Assembly (NCBI GenBank): GCA_018303805.1
Contig: JAGVXL010000001.1
Coordinates: forward strand, 241,528-305,527
Origin: Candidatus Pacearchaeota archaeon
GTDB taxonomy: Archaea; Nanobdellota; Nanobdellia; Pacearchaeales; DTIR01
DNA: 64,000 bases
Direction: 5' to 3'
Below, one piece after another: positions 29,336 through 38,914 of this stretch. How positions within the stretch are numbered: the first letter of the stretch is position 1; each line of letters opens with the position of its first letter. A program made the position numbers and the translations under genes. The notes beneath the pieces were generated by a model. That model made no database searches. It saw nothing but the letters and a program-made list of their open reading frames with translations, and was not told where the DNA came from.

Positions 29336-29998
29336 TTATTTAATCCATTTGCTAACCCTAAACTTCCTTGCAATTCTGCTCCTGCTTAATCTCTCTCCCT
29401 GCTTCAATAGAAAATAATCAAGATTTTTCAGCTCTGCAGGCGTTATTCCAATAACAGGGATCCTGTGGGCAGGATACAGCTTGTTCTTCAGGACTTTCTT
29501 TTTCCATGCCAAAGGATAGCCGCCGTAAAATTCAACAAATATATTCCAATGGGGGATGTAAAAATCCGGGGTGCAGATGTTACCCCTGAATGGCTTTTTT
29601 GTTATCATCAGTGAAATTGATTCATACAGGCAGGGGATTTTGTTTTCGTAGAGAAAATTTGCTATCTTCTGTTCTCCCTTGCTCCTGACGAGAAATTTCT
29701 GTTTTGTTCTGAGGTGCTTTTTTAATGGGTTTTTTCCATGTTTTAAGAATTCCTTGAAAGCATCAGGGTTTTTCATGAAAAAATTCCTTATTTTCTCGGA
29801 GAATTCTTTTCTCACCCTCTTATCCCTAAATCTCGCATGTTGGGCTTTGCCCAGCTTTTCCCTATAGGCAGGATTTTTGTATGCCTTCACGATTGCATTA
29901 ATCCGTTTCAGCTCAATTTTCCTGCTCTTCCTCAACCTTGCCTGCAATTCCTTTCCAGATTTAACTCTGCCCTTGCTTACAAAGCTGTAGCGCGACAT
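29336..29998 (-). CDS. Putative free-standing endonuclease; paralog of 58790-59857
   Basis: KKHLRTKQKFLVRSKGEQKIANFLYE...TPDFYIPHWNIFVEFYGG...KNKLYPAHRIPVIGITPAEL. Confidence 0.6.
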   Translation of the reverse strand: MSRYSFVSKGRVKSGKELQARLRKSRKIELKRINAIVKAYKNPAYREKLGKAQHARFRDKRVRKEFSEKIRNFFMKNPDAFKEFLKHGKNPLKKHLRTKQKFLVRSKGEQKIANFLYENKIPCLYESISLMITKKPFRGNICTPDFYIPHWNIFVEFYGGYPLAWKKKVLKNKLYPAHRIPVIGITPAELKNLDYFLLKQGERLSRSRIARKFRVSKWIK

Positions 29999-30080
29999 TC
30001 ATCAGGAAGGAAAGGAGGATTTTTAAACTTCTACACATTATAACCGAAAAGCTTAAATATCTCTACCTATTAGGAACGAT

Positions 30081-30185
30081 ATGGAAGAAGATAGTATTGA
30101 AGTGATTTGCAAGAGTAAAAATGAGAATTTGGAAGTAAAGAACTTTGAGATGGGATGCTCAGAGAACTGCCCTTGTTGCACATAA
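30081..30185 (+). CDS. 34-aa Cys-rich peptide, candidate RiPP precursor
   Basis: MEEDSIEVICKSKNENLEVKNFEMGCSENCPCCT; BRE/TATA-like CCGAAAAGCTTAAATATC about 25-30 nt upstream; convergent with rSAM gene, 3-bp gap. Confidence 0.6.
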   Translation: MEEDSIEVICKSKNENLEVKNFEMGCSENCPCCT

Positions 30186-30188
30186 GGG

Positions 30189-31460
30189 TCAGGCGACTCT
30201 AAGTTGTGTAAATCTTTCTGGAAAATTTTGTTTAAGATATAGTTTTATACGTGTTTTTATTATATTCTCCTTTAAATAACATGCGGGTTTATCTAATTTG
30301 ATATTTTTGAGGACAAGAGGGCACCCCCCACAGCAGAGAGGCAAAATCTTGCAAACTCTACACTTATCAATTTTAAGAGGGTCTCTAGCTAACCATTTGT
30401 AATAATTATAAGACATCGTCGCATTACCCCGACTGTCTATTTCTCCATCTAAGAAATTATCTAAAGGTAAAGCAATGCAAGAGTATAATTTTCCTTCTGG
30501 GTCTATTGTATATCCGTTAGCTGTGAGTTGCTTGCAGTATGAAAAAGAATGTGGTAGACCCATACCAAGTGCCATCTTAAATCCTTTATTTACCGCCATC
30601 TGCCATAATTTTGGTAGGAGTTTGATAGATGCAGGATAAGGATAATTACATGCGTTGCGTATGGGCAAAATTATCCCAAAATTAAGTGGCAATTCATTTA
30701 ATTTGACTGCGACAAGTGAATCTAACAATTCTTCAACATGGGAATATGCTCTCTTATCTATATTTATACATACATAAGCACTAATATTTTGTTTTTTAAT
30801 TTCAAGAAGATTTTTTATAATTTGGTCGTATGTCCCTTTACCACTTAGAAACGGCCTATTTCTATCATGTATACTCTTAGGTCCATTTAAGGTTATAGCA
30901 AGGGTTATAGGATACCTCTTTAATTTTTTAATGATCTTGTGGTTAAAAAGTGTGCCATTAGATACTATGCTGACAGAATATCTAATCCTATTTTGTTTAA
31001 TAAATTGATTCATTTTTTCTAAAAAATAGAAAACAATCTCCCCATTTACCATGGGCTCACCACCATAAAATCTCAAAGAAAAACTTTGGCTGTTCTTTGC
31101 TAACACTGTTTTTTTAATGAATTTTATTATACTCTTTGCAGTAGGCTTATCCATAGATTTAGATAATTTTTCGCCTTCATAGCAATATTTGCAATTAAGG
31201 TTACACGAATAGGTTGGAATAACAACAAATTCTAATTCTGTGTTATTGTACTTATAACTTTCAAAAAGAACTTTAAAAATAGTTTTTTCATCAACTCTAT
31301 CTTCGATCATTATCCCCTGATTTTTTAATAAAAAGACATCTTTAGAGAAAAGATTGTCAATTCTTCTGCCTTTTTTGAATATAAGTGAGCCTGTTAGGCA
31401 GTTATAGATTATCAAATTATTTTTATAAGGTATATTTAGATTATAATATGAAGGTTTCAT
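30189..31460 (-). CDS. Radical SAM/SPASM peptide-maturase-like protein
   Basis: CNLNCKYCYEG; GGEP; SPASM GYTIDPEGKLYSC...CRVCKILPLCCGGCPLVLKNIKLDKPAC. Confidence 0.88.
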   Translation of the reverse strand: MKPSYYNLNIPYKNNLIIYNCLTGSLIFKKGRRIDNLFSKDVFLLKNQGIMIEDRVDEKTIFKVLFESYKYNNTELEFVVIPTYSCNLNCKYCYEGEKLSKSMDKPTAKSIIKFIKKTVLAKNSQSFSLRFYGGEPMVNGEIVFYFLEKMNQFIKQNRIRYSVSIVSNGTLFNHKIIKKLKRYPITLAITLNGPKSIHDRNRPFLSGKGTYDQIIKNLLEIKKQNISAYVCINIDKRAYSHVEELLDSLVAVKLNELPLNFGIILPIRNACNYPYPASIKLLPKLWQMAVNKGFKMALGMGLPHSFSYCKQLTANGYTIDPEGKLYSCIALPLDNFLDGEIDSRGNATMSYNYYKWLARDPLKIDKCRVCKILPLCCGGCPLVLKNIKLDKPACYLKENIIKTRIKLYLKQNFPERFTQLRVA

Positions 31461-31461
31461 T

Positions 31462-32892
31462 TTATACCTTAGTTAATTTGGGTCCATCTGAAGTGTCACT
31501 GATTTGATAGCCTTTGTTTTTTATTTGTGTTCTTACTTCATCAGCTTTTTTCCAGTTACCAGATTTTCTATATAACTCTCTTTCATCAATAAGTCTTTTA
31601 ATATCCCGAGATAGATCTCCTAAAAATCTAGAGGTAGTCTCTGTCAAGTCAAGAGCTAACACTTTATCAAAATCTTTAATTAAATCATATTTTTCTTTGT
31701 TTCCTATCCCCTTTTCAGCCATTAGATTCCACAATGTAGCCAAAGCTTCGGGCATGTTAAGATCATAACTTATATTTTCAGTGAATTCTTTTTTATACGA
31801 GTCTATTAATTTATGATTAGTTTTGCTAAATTGGTCTCCTTGAATAATTGAAACAAGATTCTTTAGTCTTTCATAAGCATTTTTTGCAGATTGGAGGTTT
31901 TTCATGCTAAATACTAGGGGTTTTCTATAACTGGCTGTAAGGCAGAAATATCTATAGGCAAGAGGGTCAAAACCTTGTTTTTCTAAATCGTTTATGGTTA
32001 GAAAATTTCTTTCTGATTTGCCCATTTTCCCTTCTTTTAATATTAAAAATTCCCCATGAAGCCAATAATTCACAAATTTACTGCCTGTAGAAGCCTCTGA
32101 CTGAGCTATTTCGTTAGTATGATGAACTGGGATGTGGTCTGTTCCTCCACAATGGACGTCAAAATGTTTACCAAGATACTTCATAGACATTGCTGAACAT
32201 TCAATATGCCAGCCCGGAAAGCCCTTGCCCCATGGACTGTCCCATTCCATTTGCCTTTTTTTGTCTGTTGGAGAAAATTTCCACAAAGCAAAATCGGTAG
32301 GGGAGTTTTTTTCACCCATCTCTATTCTTTTGCCTGCCTTTAATTTTTCTATTCTTAGCTTAGCTAATTTTCCATAATCTTTTAATTTCGAGGTATCAAA
32401 GTAGATACCCTCGCTTGTTTTGTAAGTATATCCTTTACCTTCTAATCCCCTAATTAATTCTATCTGTTCTTTTATGTGGTCTGTAGCCTTACATATTATA
32501 TCTGGTTTTTTTATATTCAATTTTTTCTCATCTACAAGAAAGGCTTTTGTGTAAAATTCTGCTATATCCCATATAGACTTTCCTTCCCTTTTTGCGCCTA
32601 TCTCCATCTTGTCTTCACCAGTATCGGCATCGCTTGTTAAATGCCCCACATCAGTTATATTCATCACATGTTTCACTTTGTAGCCATTATATTCCAAGAC
32701 CTTCTTCAAAACATCCTCAAAAATGTAAGTTCTTAGGTTGCCTATATGTGCATAATTATATACCGTAGGCCCACAACAATACATCTTAACATTTGGGGGG
32801 TTAATTGGCTTGAATTCTTCGAATCTTCTTCCTAAGGTATTAAAAAATACTATTTTGTTCTCCATTTTACCTAATACAGTCTCCAAGCTCAT
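31462..32892 (-). CDS. cysS: Cysteinyl-tRNA synthetase
   Basis: [63 protein letters not shown]. Confidence 0.95.
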
Positions 32893-33947: not shown

Positions 33948-33998
33948 AACATCATACGCATTAACCTGCATGCTGCACTCTGAAGGTGCAGGCATGTT
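33948..33998 (-). repeat. Left copy of 51-bp direct repeat; duplicate of the 3' end of the 35222-38914 gene
   Basis: aacatcatacgcattaacctgcatgctgcactctgaaggtgcaggcatgtt vs 35234-35284, two mismatches. Confidence 0.9.
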
Positions 33999-34085: not shown

Positions 34086-34598
34086 ATGGTTATCGAAGAC
34101 ATAATACCAACTCTGCCAAAAAAGAAAGAGGGGATTGAGAATGCATATAAGAATTGTTGCAAAAATAAAAAATTCATTCCTGTAAAAAAAGATAATTTTT
34201 CTGTTTACTTAGAAAAAGCAAAAAGCGATTTATCAAACACAAAAACTGATTTTGGAAATCAGGCATGGGACGGGGTTATAATCAAATGCTATTATGCTAT
34301 ACATCATGCAATCAACGCCTTGCTTGTCAAATCACAAGGATTTTATTCAAAAGACCATATATGCGCAATATTAGCATTAAATTATCTTAAATTGATATCA
34401 GAAAGTTTCTATAAAAAATTAAGAGAGATAAATACAAAATTCTCGGATTTTACTGGTTTTGAGATAAGCTATTCATTGAGAAAATTAAGCCAGTATGATG
34501 TCCTAAAGTGGAAATCGATAAACAAAAAAGACGCTGAACAAATATACTCTCTGGCAAAAGAACTTATTTTATTTGTTGAAGTGGAGTGCTACAAATGA
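34086..34598 (+). CDS. HEPN-domain protein
   Basis: VYLEKAKSDLSNTK...AWDGVIIKCYYAIHHAINALLVKSQGFYSKDH, four-helix HEPN pattern. Confidence 0.75.
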   Translation: MVIEDIIPTLPKKKEGIENAYKNCCKNKKFIPVKKDNFSVYLEKAKSDLSNTKTDFGNQAWDGVIIKCYYAIHHAINALLVKSQGFYSKDHICAILALNYLKLISESFYKKLREINTKFSDFTGFEISYSLRKLSQYDVLKWKSINKKDAEQIYSLAKELILFVEVECYK

Positions 34599-35206
34599 TA
34601 TTCCCAACATCTAAAGCAGAATACAAAATAATCAAGGAGATATATGAAAATCCTGGGATAAATATCTCGACATTGTTAAAAAAAACAAGAACTTCCCCCC
34701 AAGCAGGATACAAGTATATAAAAGAACTATTAAAGGCACAAATTATAAAAGAGGCAAAAGAAGGAGAGAAGCCTATTCTCAGGCGTTTCTATCCAAATTT
34801 CTCAGAAGTAGGAAAATTAATTTTTGCATTGATTGAAGAAAACAAAAAGCAGGATTTCTTGAATATTCATCCTATATTCAAAGGTGCAATAATTCAGTTT
34901 GAAAAAGAAATAATTGATCAGGTTGACTGTGTACTTATTTTTGGTTCATTCGCCAGAAAAAGTGAAACTAAAGAAAGCGATGTTGATATGCTTGTTCTTG
35001 GCAAAAAAGAAATCAAGAAATATATAGAGAAATTGACAGAGCGTGCTTTTATCACTATAAGAAATAAGATTTCATTAAGATTTAATAAAACCAAAGATTT
35101 CATTAAAAAAATTGAGAATAATGACTCTTTTGCAGTTCAGATACAAAAGGAGCATGTTGTTACAGTAAATGCCAAAAAATGGGTTGAAATAGTTTCAGAA
35201 TTATAA
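34595..35206 (+). CDS. wHTH-MNT nucleotidyltransferase
   Basis: CVLIFGSFARKSETKESDVDMLVLGKK (GSxxRxxxxxxSDxD) plus N-terminal wHTH. Confidence 0.85.
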   Translation: MIFPTSKAEYKIIKEIYENPGINISTLLKKTRTSPQAGYKYIKELLKAQIIKEAKEGEKPILRRFYPNFSEVGKLIFALIEENKKQDFLNIHPIFKGAIIQFEKEIIDQVDCVLIFGSFARKSETKESDVDMLVLGKKEIKKYIEKLTERAFITIRNKISLRFNKTKDFIKKIENNDSFAVQIQKEHVVTVNAKKWVEIVSEL

Positions 35207-35221
35207 ATCTAAATAAAAAAT

Positions 35222-38200
35222 TCAACCTGTTGGAACATCATACGCGTTTACCTGCATGCTGCACTCTGAAGGTGCAGGCATGTTTCCATAAATATCCCTG
35301 CACTTGATATAGTAAGTTATGTCTGTTCTCCAGTCTGCTGTGTGCTCTGTTGATGTTGTGAAAGGCATTTCAGTAGCAGCAGTAAAGTCAAACTTACAAT
35401 CTTTAATGCTGTATCTGCACTCACTCTCTTCATCAGTTATTATTTTAAGCATGCCTGCATCCTGGTAGACCCTGACAATCAAAGGTGCAGTCCTGTCAAC
35501 TTCTGTCTTGAAGCTGGTTATTGCCTTATCTGTATTGCCCCCTAAATCTCTGCATAGCACATAATAGGTATTGTTTTCTGCTGCATACAAATCTAACTTT
35601 TGTTCATGTATGCTGCTTCCAGTTGTAAAGAATTCTACCATTGCATTTTCATAACCTGCAGGAGAGAAATAGCAAGACGCATCTCCATTATTGTAGCCAT
35701 TTGAAGTCTCAATCTTTAATGTAACAGGAACTGGCTCTGAGCCATACTTGATAGTTCCATTTGGCTCAATCTTTGTTATGTTAAGAGGAATTGTCCCTTT
35801 TAATGTGAAAACATAACTTTCCTTGTTCACATTCCTGTCACTTTCATTAGCAGTTCCAATAAGCCAAGGCTGGTCTCTGCACCTGAAATAAAATTTATTT
35901 TCAACTTTGTCCTGTATCTTCGTTAAAGTTGTTGAACATTTGTAAGTCATATCCCATTCCATTTGCTCAAGTGAGGAAGAACAAGCAAATGTGCTGTTCA
36001 TATTTGAATAGTCCTGGTCTGTCTTGCTCCACTTGCATTCTGCTGGCTCGTTCAAATAAACATCTAAATCAGAATTTTTAGTGCCATAGGCGACAGGAGC
36101 GCCATTCTCAATGCCTGTTCTCATAACTGTTGCAGGAGTTGTATCAGGGCCAGGGTCAACGCAGAATTGCATTGCCATCTCCCCAAGATTCCAGTTTCCA
36201 TTTCCATCCCTGCATCTTGCATAAAGCGTATACTTTCCATCATTCTTAAGTTCAGGGCTTTCAAGCTGTGCATTGATATGTGCAGGAGCAGGCAGGCTCA
36301 TCTGCATGCTGTGATTATACATATACAGATTATCGCCAAAGAAGAACTGCATGTCATCAAACTTAGATGTGTGATTTGTGTCAACCTTGCATTGCGCAGG
36401 CTCATTTGTCTCTATGCCAAATGTCAAAGGTGTAAATGCCTTGATACAGCCATCTTGTGCGCCCTGCCTAATAATATTCCAGCAACCAGGTCCTGGAGGG
36501 CATGGCTTAACGCTTTGATAAGAATGGTCTTTTGTAAGCACGCCATCCCATGGCTTTATAGTCGGAGCATTTGTATCATCTTTATTGAGCCATGCGCAGA
36601 TATCCTTGCCAGTTCCCTCATTCAACAAACTGCATCCAGTGCCCAAGCTCTCACACCTGTACTTGCTGCACGGCTTCATTGGCCCGCCAAGAGGTGCCTT
36701 ATTGCATTTTTCGCAATCCTCTCCGCCTGTTGGTGGCTGCCAAGGCATACAAGTAAAGGTTACGGTTTCAGTTCTTGTTGAACCTATCTTCATAACTTTA
36801 AGGATTATTGCAACTATAATCATTGCAACAACCGCCCAAATAAGAGGGCCGAACCATGGCCCTTTCGGACCTAAAAGAAGCCACTTACCTGTTGCTCCTC
36901 CAAAACCTTTAACAAATCCTGCCATGGATGTCAAAGCAGCAGTACTAACGCCCGTCATTGTTACGGTATTAGCAGCTTCGCCTTTCAGACCAAACATTTG
37001 ATTTATTAGAATTGATGTCAAATAAGCACCTGCTACATTAACTGCAAGATTAGCAAAGCCACCTTGTTGGGCGTTTATTGTTAACCATTGATTTAATGTT
37101 AATTCTTTACCTGGAGCATATCCTAATTTCAAACCTTTAAGACTAGTAACTCCCTTTTGCGTCCCTCCAAAGAATTTAGCAGCTTCTAATGCTGTCTCTC
37201 CAGAAACAGGTATGAAATGGAAACTATTAAATAATATCCCTACACCAATGGCAACACCCCCAGCAAATAAAATCCCGCCAAACTGCCCCATGCCAGCATC
37301 CTGATTGCTGACGTTCTTGTCTGGCTCGTTCTGCGTTCCAGAAATTTGATAACCATCATCTGTGAACTTTCCTGCAATATTATACTTGCCACCGCAATCA
37401 CCCAGGCTTGTGCAGAATTTACTAATTGCATTTATCCAATTCTTCTCCTTGCATTCGCAATTTTGTATGCATTTCCATCCGCTCTTTAATGTCTTTTGAT
37501 AAATAACAGTGCATGATTGTGTTGCCATGCTGCAATAAGTATTAGCAGATAAACCCCCGCCCTCTGTCTTTAAATTAAATCCCGGTGGAAAGTTAGGCAC
37601 ACACATCTTTGATTTTGTTGCAACAGTGTTTAATTCCATATACATGCAGTCATTATTATCCTTGCATGCCTTCTCAACATTCGGCTTTGTATTATAATCA
37701 AAGCACATCTTCCATGCATTTGCACGGCACATTGCCTCTGTAAAATTGCCAGAGCCTTCAACTTTAACACTATCCTGAACACAAATTGCCTGCCTGTAAT
37801 CATCGCAGGGCTCAACCTTTTCCTCACCCTGCACACAAAGATTTCTCCAATGCCTTGAGCCAGGCGCATCTCTTCCCTTGCCAACCAACCCATCAAAAAC
37901 GCACCAGCTCTCACCATGCTTGTAATCATTGCCATTTGAGGTTTTATAACAATTCAAGTCCCTGCAAATATAATCTCCTGAAGCTGGGCGCGGCTCAACT
38001 CCTGTTCTTGCCTTTCCGCACATTGAGCCAAGATAATACTGGCAGTTCCCGCAGGAAGGATCTTTTGCATTATTCTCATTAGGGTCACAGGATTTTTCCT
38101 TGCTCAAAATCTTCCCAAAATTATAGCTTCTCGTCTTGTCTGAATCATAAATATTCTCGGCATTGCCGCATGAATCAAACCAATATACTTCATCCTTGCC

Positions 38201-38914
38201 TTCTATGCATCCTGTTCTTGCCTGCCTTGCGCAGTTTGTTCCAAGCTGTTCTGCTGAACAGAGAAAATCTTTATAGAAAGCAGACTCATTTCTTGTTAAT
38301 GTCTTGCACTCTGCCCTTGTGGCAAATTTGCATGTTCTTTCTGTTGCTGTGTCAATCACACAGGCACCTTTATCCTGGGATTGCGCAATCGCAACGCATG
38401 CAGATTCAGTTGTAATGCCGCTCCTGAAATCTGTTTCCAAGCCATAATATGAAGCAAGCTTCTTGCATTTTACTAATGTAGTGAGAGAAGCATCACTTCC
38501 TAAAACACAGCATCCTAATGAGCATTGCGCTATTTTGCAGTCTGCATTCACATCAAAGGTTCCATTTCTCAACTCGCATAATTTTCTTGGGGTATTCTCT
38601 GCGCAAGTTCCCTCAACAGAATCATAACAGCAGCCGAGCTTGCAGAATGAAGTTGAAGCGCATGCAGTCGGAGCAGACTTAAAAGCAGTATTACAAGTGT
38701 CAGACATGGAATTCTGGCAAAACAATCCAGAATCCTTGACTTTCTCGCAGCATGCCGGCTGTGCAGCTTTAACAACAGGAATCGGCGCTGCAATCAAAAC
38801 TGAAAAAGCAAAGATTGAAACTATCAAAATAGCAATCTGGAAAAAAGCCTCGCTAACGACGCTCGGCTTTTTCAGCGCCTCTTTCAGCTTGATTTGAATT
38901 TTGGCTTTATCCAT
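35222..38914 (-). CDS. Very large secreted Cys-rich surface protein
   Basis: N-terminal TM/signal, Cys-rich modules (SLGCCVLGS...), central TM helices, C-terminal Ig-like repeats. Confidence 0.7.
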   Translation of the reverse strand: MDKAKIQIKLKEALKKPSVVSEAFFQIAILIVSIFAFSVLIAAPIPVVKAAQPACCEKVKDSGLFCQNSMSDTCNTAFKSAPTACASTSFCKLGCCYDSVEGTCAENTPRKLCELRNGTFDVNADCKIAQCSLGCCVLGSDASLTTLVKCKKLASYYGLETDFRSGITTESACVAIAQSQDKGACVIDTATERTCKFATRAECKTLTRNESAFYKDFLCSAEQLGTNCARQARTGCIEGKDEVYWFDSCGNAENIYDSDKTRSYNFGKILSKEKSCDPNENNAKDPSCGNCQYYLGSMCGKARTGVEPRPASGDYICRDLNCYKTSNGNDYKHGESWCVFDGLVGKGRDAPGSRHWRNLCVQGEEKVEPCDDYRQAICVQDSVKVEGSGNFTEAMCRANAWKMCFDYNTKPNVEKACKDNNDCMYMELNTVATKSKMCVPNFPPGFNLKTEGGGLSANTYCSMATQSCTVIYQKTLKSGWKCIQNCECKEKNWINAISKFCTSLGDCGGKYNIAGKFTDDGYQISGTQNEPDKNVSNQDAGMGQFGGILFAGGVAIGVGILFNSFHFIPVSGETALEAAKFFGGTQKGVTSLKGLKLGYAPGKELTLNQWLTINAQQGGFANLAVNVAGAYLTSILINQMFGLKGEAANTVTMTGVSTAALTSMAGFVKGFGGATGKWLLLGPKGPWFGPLIWAVVAMIIVAIILKVMKIGSTRTETVTFTCMPWQPPTGGEDCEKCNKAPLGGPMKPCSKYRCESLGTGCSLLNEGTGKDICAWLNKDDTNAPTIKPWDGVLTKDHSYQSVKPCPPGPGCWNIIRQGAQDGCIKAFTPLTFGIETNEPAQCKVDTNHTSKFDDMQFFFGDNLYMYNHSMQMSLPAPAHINAQLESPELKNDGKYTLYARCRDGNGNWNLGEMAMQFCVDPGPDTTPATVMRTGIENGAPVAYGTKNSDLDVYLNEPAECKWSKTDQDYSNMNSTFACSSSLEQMEWDMTYKCSTTLTKIQDKVENKFYFRCRDQPWLIGTANESDRNVNKESYVFTLKGTIPLNITKIEPNGTIKYGSEPVPVTLKIETSNGYNNGDASCYFSPAGYENAMVEFFTTGSSIHEQKLDLYAAENNTYYVLCRDLGGNTDKAITSFKTEVDRTAPLIVRVYQDAGMLKIITDEESECRYSIKDCKFDFTAATEMPFTTSTEHTADWRTDITYYIKCRDIYGNMPAPSECSMQVNAYDVPTG
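35234..35284 (-). repeat. Right copy of 51-bp direct repeat
   Basis: See 33948-33998. Confidence 0.9.

Follow-up and report, generated by a model that had tools for sequence, protein, structure and literature searches.

Does a radical SAM/SPASM gene lying between a short Cys-rich reading frame and a cysteinyl-tRNA synthetase gene belong to a RiPP-type locus, and do its two neighbours take part in its pathway? The window, which is the whole stretch of 64,000 nucleotides analysed, contains the following features at this locus. The peptide ORF, the SPASM gene and cysS described in the earlier note were re-read, and all three were recovered at its positions.

30044-30060, plus strand: BRE/TATA-like promoter (CCGAAAAG CTTAAATAT), from a PWM trained on 34 window genes
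30081-30185, plus strand: candidate RiPP precursor of 34 aa with 5 Cys, from ORF reading and gap simulation
30189-31460, minus strand: radical SAM/SPASM peptide maturase of 423 aa, CefB-like, from profiles, motifs and a structural model
31462-32892, minus strand: cysteinyl-tRNA synthetase of 476 aa, the second copy in the genome, from profile, genome search and synteny

The three genes are closely packed. Between the peptide stop and the convergent SPASM stop codon (30189-30191, opposite strand) lie 3 nt, in agreement with the 3-bp distance reported earlier. The cysS TAA (31462-31464) and the SPASM ATG at 31460 are one base apart (TAA-A-ATG; minus strand ...GGTATAAAATGAAACC...), so that the SPASM gene does begin directly after the cysS stop, in a tightly coupled arrangement. 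The SPASM start codon is confirmed by the conserved MKxSxYN N-terminus of the homologues. The cysS-SPASM pair would be transcribed leftward as one unit and translationally coupled. Neither a transporter nor a peptidase gene was recognised beside the SPASM gene. On the other side, the peptide ORF adjoins a divergently transcribed gene on the minus strand (29336-29998), whose product, 220 aa long, matches a PD-(D/E)XK-like nuclease entry of PADLOC (PDC-S69, E 6e-13).

The SPASM protein is of the peptide-maturase type and is not a sulfatase maturase. It matches the Pfam Radical_SAM domain with 62.7 bits. Its best NCBIfam profile is CefB (NF038107; 279.5 bits, below the cutoff of 600), aligned over residues 1-413, followed by TIGR04463 (190.8 bits, cutoff 525), the Clo7bot maturase profile (186.7 bits) and the geopeptide maturase TIGR04280 (166.2 bits, cutoff 400). 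The anSME profile TIGR03942 reaches 106.8 bits (cutoff 349) and the SCIFF maturase profile TIGR03974 reaches 66.2 bits (cutoff 425). The possibility raised earlier, that the protein groups with anSME-type enzymes, is thus answered by its grouping with CefB, TIGR04463, Clo7bot and geopeptide maturases. Because neither this protein nor its nearest homologues reach any curated family cutoff, it is assigned to a CefB-like branch that has no name. It forms a deep lone branch in a tree of 57 homologues, where a protein of genome G429, a Spirochaetaceae protein and a Methanosaeta cluster lie nearby without strong support. The radical SAM motif CX3CX2C is complete (C86-X3-C90-X2-C93) and invariant in 30 homologues. 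The seven-Cys SPASM motif is also complete (309-394) and is formed by C309-X13-G-X4-C328, C367-X2-C370-X5-C376-X3-C380 and C394. Nine of the ten motif Cys residues are invariant in the 30 homologues and the tenth is nearly so. A weak PADLOC match of the radical SAM core to viperin-type enzymes was discarded in favour of the SPASM families.

The AlphaFold model of the enzyme, built from 30 sequences, has a mean pLDDT of 86.7. Its best PDB match is CteB (5wgg, TMq 0.70); TigE also scores 0.70, and anSME structures score 0.56-0.60. The match to CteB spans the whole length, including an N-terminal part that is absent from anSME. In the model, the N-terminus consists of three strands followed by helices and is predicted to be RRE-like; its helical part is about 12 residues shorter than in the L071 homologue and 9 residues shorter than in the L070 homologue. 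No RRE profile matched the SPASM protein. The RRE of CteB binds the leader as a β-strand that lies between its strand 3 and its helix 3 (PMC8326336). Judging from the model, the three N-terminal strands and the helix of the SPASM protein could bind a leader in the same manner.

The synthetase gene raises a separate question. The genome is a single contig of 575,132 bases with an estimated completeness of 77%, and the copy count proposed in the earlier note reveals two full-length cysS genes (490.6 and 459.4 bits), which is the new result of this follow-up. The window CysRS matches TIGR00435 with 459.7 bits, above the cutoff of 340, and its motifs are intact: HIGN is present, and KMSKS is replaced by KMGKS, as also occurs in relatives. 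Matches to cysS were found in 51 of 54 relatives, one in each, two of which carry their single gene as two pieces. The other copy is located at 55.7 kb of the contig. Homologues of its neighbours accompany the single cysS in five relatives (G001, G020, G004, G036 and G005), and homologues of the window copy's neighbours do not. This synteny identifies the window cysS as the extra copy; the suggestion that it is simply the housekeeping gene therefore does not hold. The window copy shares about 50% identity with the native copy and up to 63% with cysS of its own order and class. In a tree of sequences selected for their similarity to the window copy, the two cysS genes of this genome fall into different groups, which argues against a recent duplication. 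No SPASM neighbour was observed at any of 53 other cysS loci, each covered with both flanks to at most about 1.5 kb. Conversely, the homologous SPASM loci contain no cysS besides one in Anaerococcus, 4 kb from a SPASM homologue, which was set aside as part of a housekeeping gltX-cysS cluster.

The window cysS and the SPASM gene were probably acquired together, to judge by their composition. GC and GC3 are 31/26% for the SPASM gene and 34/30% for the window cysS, compared with 39/45% for the native cysS and 39/41% for window genes; this AT-richness fits joint acquisition without proving it. A donor, if there was one, was probably a related archaeon, given the identity of the window cysS to genes of its own order and class. 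No direct repeats flanking the cysS-SPASM module were present among the matches listed. Viral contigs gave no relative of the SPASM or the CysRS protein, and the plasmid search gave distant relatives only, with <30% identity among the matches listed.

A 51-nt direct repeat with 96% identity (33948-33998 and 35234-35284) is found elsewhere in the window. It brackets a low-GC pair of genes that encode an HEPN-domain protein (34086-34598) and an MntA-like winged-helix/nucleotidyltransferase protein (34586-35206). The repeat corresponds to the 3´ end of a gene for 1230 aa on the minus strand (35222-38914), suggesting that the HEPN/nucleotidyltransferase pair was inserted there with duplication of the gene end.

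The chances are evenly balanced that the link between cysS and the SPASM gene is accidental, that is, that two biochemically unrelated foreign genes landed together and the redundant housekeeping cysS is heading for loss or replacement. This reading concerns the role of cysS only. It agrees with the occurrence of the pairing in one genome only, with the AT-richness of both genes and with the presence of another low-GC, foreign-looking module in the window at 34-35 kb, but it is less easily reconciled with the TAA-A-ATG coupling and with an intact full-length cysS ORF in a reduced genome.

The peptide has the sequence MEEDSIEVICKSKNENLEVKNFEMGCSENCPCCT and terminates in CSENCPCCT. Its Cys residues are located at positions 10, 26, 30, 32 and 33, with four of the five within the last 12 residues. 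At least four Cys among the C-terminal 12 residues are present in only 5 of the window's 773 small ORFs, and of these 5 only the peptide ORF belongs to the 130 situated largely outside larger ORFs. When 190-nt gaps were simulated with a second-order Markov model, 0.135% of them contained an ORF of this kind (25-60 residues, four Cys among the final twelve), the Cys criterion having been picked after the peptide was seen; a chance ORF is thus unlikely (P about 0.001, with the criterion set afterwards). The TATA-like element CTTAAATAT starts 29 nt before the peptide ATG. In the 34 window genes scored with the same PWM, TATA spacing is most often -27 to -29, suggesting that leaderless or near-leaderless starts are usual in the window. 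The BRE/TATA-like element placed about 25-30 nt upstream in the earlier note is accordingly present and scores better than 92% of decoys. The promoter alone is weak evidence, since its score is matched by 42 of 514 small decoy ORFs (8%), 21 of them (4%) at the proper spacing.

The expected conservation of the peptide beside SPASM homologues was not observed. No homologue was found in 132 genomes of the order, where chance matches only were obtained (best E 0.035 per genome). The nearest homologue of the enzyme, at 34-36% identity (G429, locus L070), has instead a Cys-free peptide ORF upstream, with three 14-residue repeats DAPVMGLGHALDLP, which implies that the class of substrate does not follow from an enzyme similarity of 30-36%. 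Eight precursor-like peptides encoded at homologous loci were aligned with the window peptide. A weak pattern is shared with the start of the G429 repeat peptide (IEVICKSKN / MEIVSRNKS), for which 63 of 2000 shuffles were as good, or 20 of 2000 with Cys masked. Leader kinship was rejected, as G429 alone gives this weak signal and it is not significant after correction for eight comparisons.

Small Cys-rich ORFs are present beside the enzyme gene in at least seven DPANN loci from the order and class of this archaeon, where the SPASM proteins are more distant homologues: L020 (75 aa), L021, L024, L029 (three), L033, L035 (two) and L073. The precursor-like ORFs of homologous loci are mostly upstream and co-directional, in contrast to the convergent ORF of the window. 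Several of these neighbourhoods have an elaborate organisation. In a genome of the same archaeal order (G027, L029 2-818), three successive similar Cys-rich ORFs of 66, 65 and 125 aa adjoin the SPASM gene. In G429, the repeat peptide ORF (L070 5588-5758) has a TTG start and is located about 220 nt upstream of the CefB-like SPASM gene; a 33-aa ORF (MQKKYRIVRKINQ..., L070 5880-5981) overlaps the SPASM start codon with its stop (ATGA), and the SPASM gene is followed by a glycosyltransferase-like gene. In Methanosaeta sp. PtaU1.Bin112 (L080 6440-16007), a 53-aa Cys-rich peptide MGTVKMDVLDEGTKKSGKIKSSSSCSSCDERGSLLGCCIIHFWCWEAGHGACC precedes seven tandem CefB-like SPASM genes. In an uncultured Clostridia genome (L088 6271-7663), eight short, similar Cys-rich ORFs (MKYIVKP.../MKFVVKP...) lie in a row before the SPASM gene.

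With a probability a little below even, the SPASM protein is indeed a peptide maturase but has another substrate: the 34-aa ORF would have arisen by chance or encode a small metal-binding protein unrelated to it, the actual precursor would be elsewhere in the genome or lost, and an orphan maturase would have been acquired with cysS. The lack of conservation within the order, the convergent gene order, the different kind of peptide beside the nearest homologue and the proportion of decoys that reach the promoter score all favour this explanation. Against it stand the rarity with which a comparable ORF arises in the gap by chance (about 0.1%), its being the only window ORF both outside larger ORFs and so Cys-rich C-terminally, and its direct contact with the maturase gene. 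The 34-aa peptide is a plausible but unproven precursor of the SPASM enzyme; both the peptide and the spare cysS are tied to the enzyme by position only.

We favour, at about even probability, a horizontally acquired, lineage-specific RiPP-type locus whose enzyme cross-links a short precursor, for which the convergent 34-aa peptide is the best candidate. The SPASM enzyme would most likely bind the acidic, strand-like N-terminal half of such a precursor. Chemistry based on the 5´-deoxyadenosyl radical, together with two auxiliary 4Fe-4S clusters, would then install thioether or similar cross-links; in the candidate 34-aa precursor, the C-terminal C-x3-C-x-CC would be the modified part. Thioethers are the natural guess, given a tail rich in Cys and a fold like that of CteB. 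Chemistries other than thioether formation are known in these maturase families. The second CysRS would be a functional-looking spare that arrived with the module and may supply Cys-tRNA, protect the host or be a passenger.

A stronger proposal takes the convergent peptide as the substrate and the second CysRS as dedicated to the pathway, either to confer immunity to a product that targets CysRS or to provide Cys-tRNA; this combination is unlikely. The Cys-tRNA-dependent tailoring considered in the earlier note gains no support: the peptide-aminoacyl-tRNA ligase domain (PEARL, Lant_dehydr_N-type, PF04738) gave no match in the genome, a weak negative because the control genomes gave none either. 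Extra synthetases are found beside some antibiotic clusters. It is conceivable, though improbable, that the second CysRS likewise serves self-protection, being resistant where the mature product, or a Cys-derived fragment of it, inhibits the normal CysRS, a role compatible with the favoured explanation. The presence of two cysS genes in a genome of 575 kb, the extra one a single base away from the maturase gene, points in this direction, as does its divergence from the native copy, through which sensitivity could differ; however, the SPASM-cysS association is a single case among the inspected cysS and SPASM loci, the Anaerococcus housekeeping cluster aside. A formylglycine-generating anaerobic sulfatase maturase is very improbable, since the structural match to anSME is outweighed by a profile score far below those of the peptide maturases and by the fit of CteB to the N-terminal part that anSME lacks.

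This is a real RiPP-type maturase locus, probably acquired, with an unusual passenger; the links from the enzyme to the peptide and to cysS are unproven. RiPP pathways of DPANN archaea appear to be little described: in the literature covered, three papers bring radical SAM, RiPP and DPANN together. With its SPASM maturase gene joined to that of a second aminoacyl-tRNA synthetase in a reduced genome, the locus allows one to test directly whether cysteinylation is a target or a requirement of the product. A positive answer would hint at a role of such peptides in archaea; a negative one would leave one more lineage-specific maturase.

Among known systems, CefB (NF038107) is the best family for the SPASM protein and has the same domain order. 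The literature covered yielded nothing on Cys-every-fifth (Cef) peptides, and a single paper that connects cysteinyl-tRNA synthetase with radical SAM and RiPP. The Cys residues of the window peptide are not placed at every fifth position. PEARL pathways (TglB, TmoB) add Cys to a ribosomal peptide from Cys-tRNA (PMC9303977, PMC9016710), but they need the ligase, and an ordinary CysRS is not a PEARL. TIGR04463 maturases are the second-best profile family, and TigE (PDB 8vpo) resembles the model in fold, with 15% identity in the fold search. The SCIFF thioether maturase CteB (PDB 5wgg/5why) has the closest solved fold, with N-terminal strands, a SAM barrel and a SPASM domain with two cluster sites, although its sequence is only 17% identical to the window enzyme; SCIFF itself contains six Cys in forty-five residues, as opposed to five in 34 for the convergent window peptide. 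The closest enzymes in named genomes, at about 30% identity, are those of the Methanosaeta PtaU1.Bin112 cluster, which differs from the window in its seven tandem SPASM genes, its co-directional 53-aa peptide and its lack of cysS, and shares with it a short Cys-rich peptide ORF.
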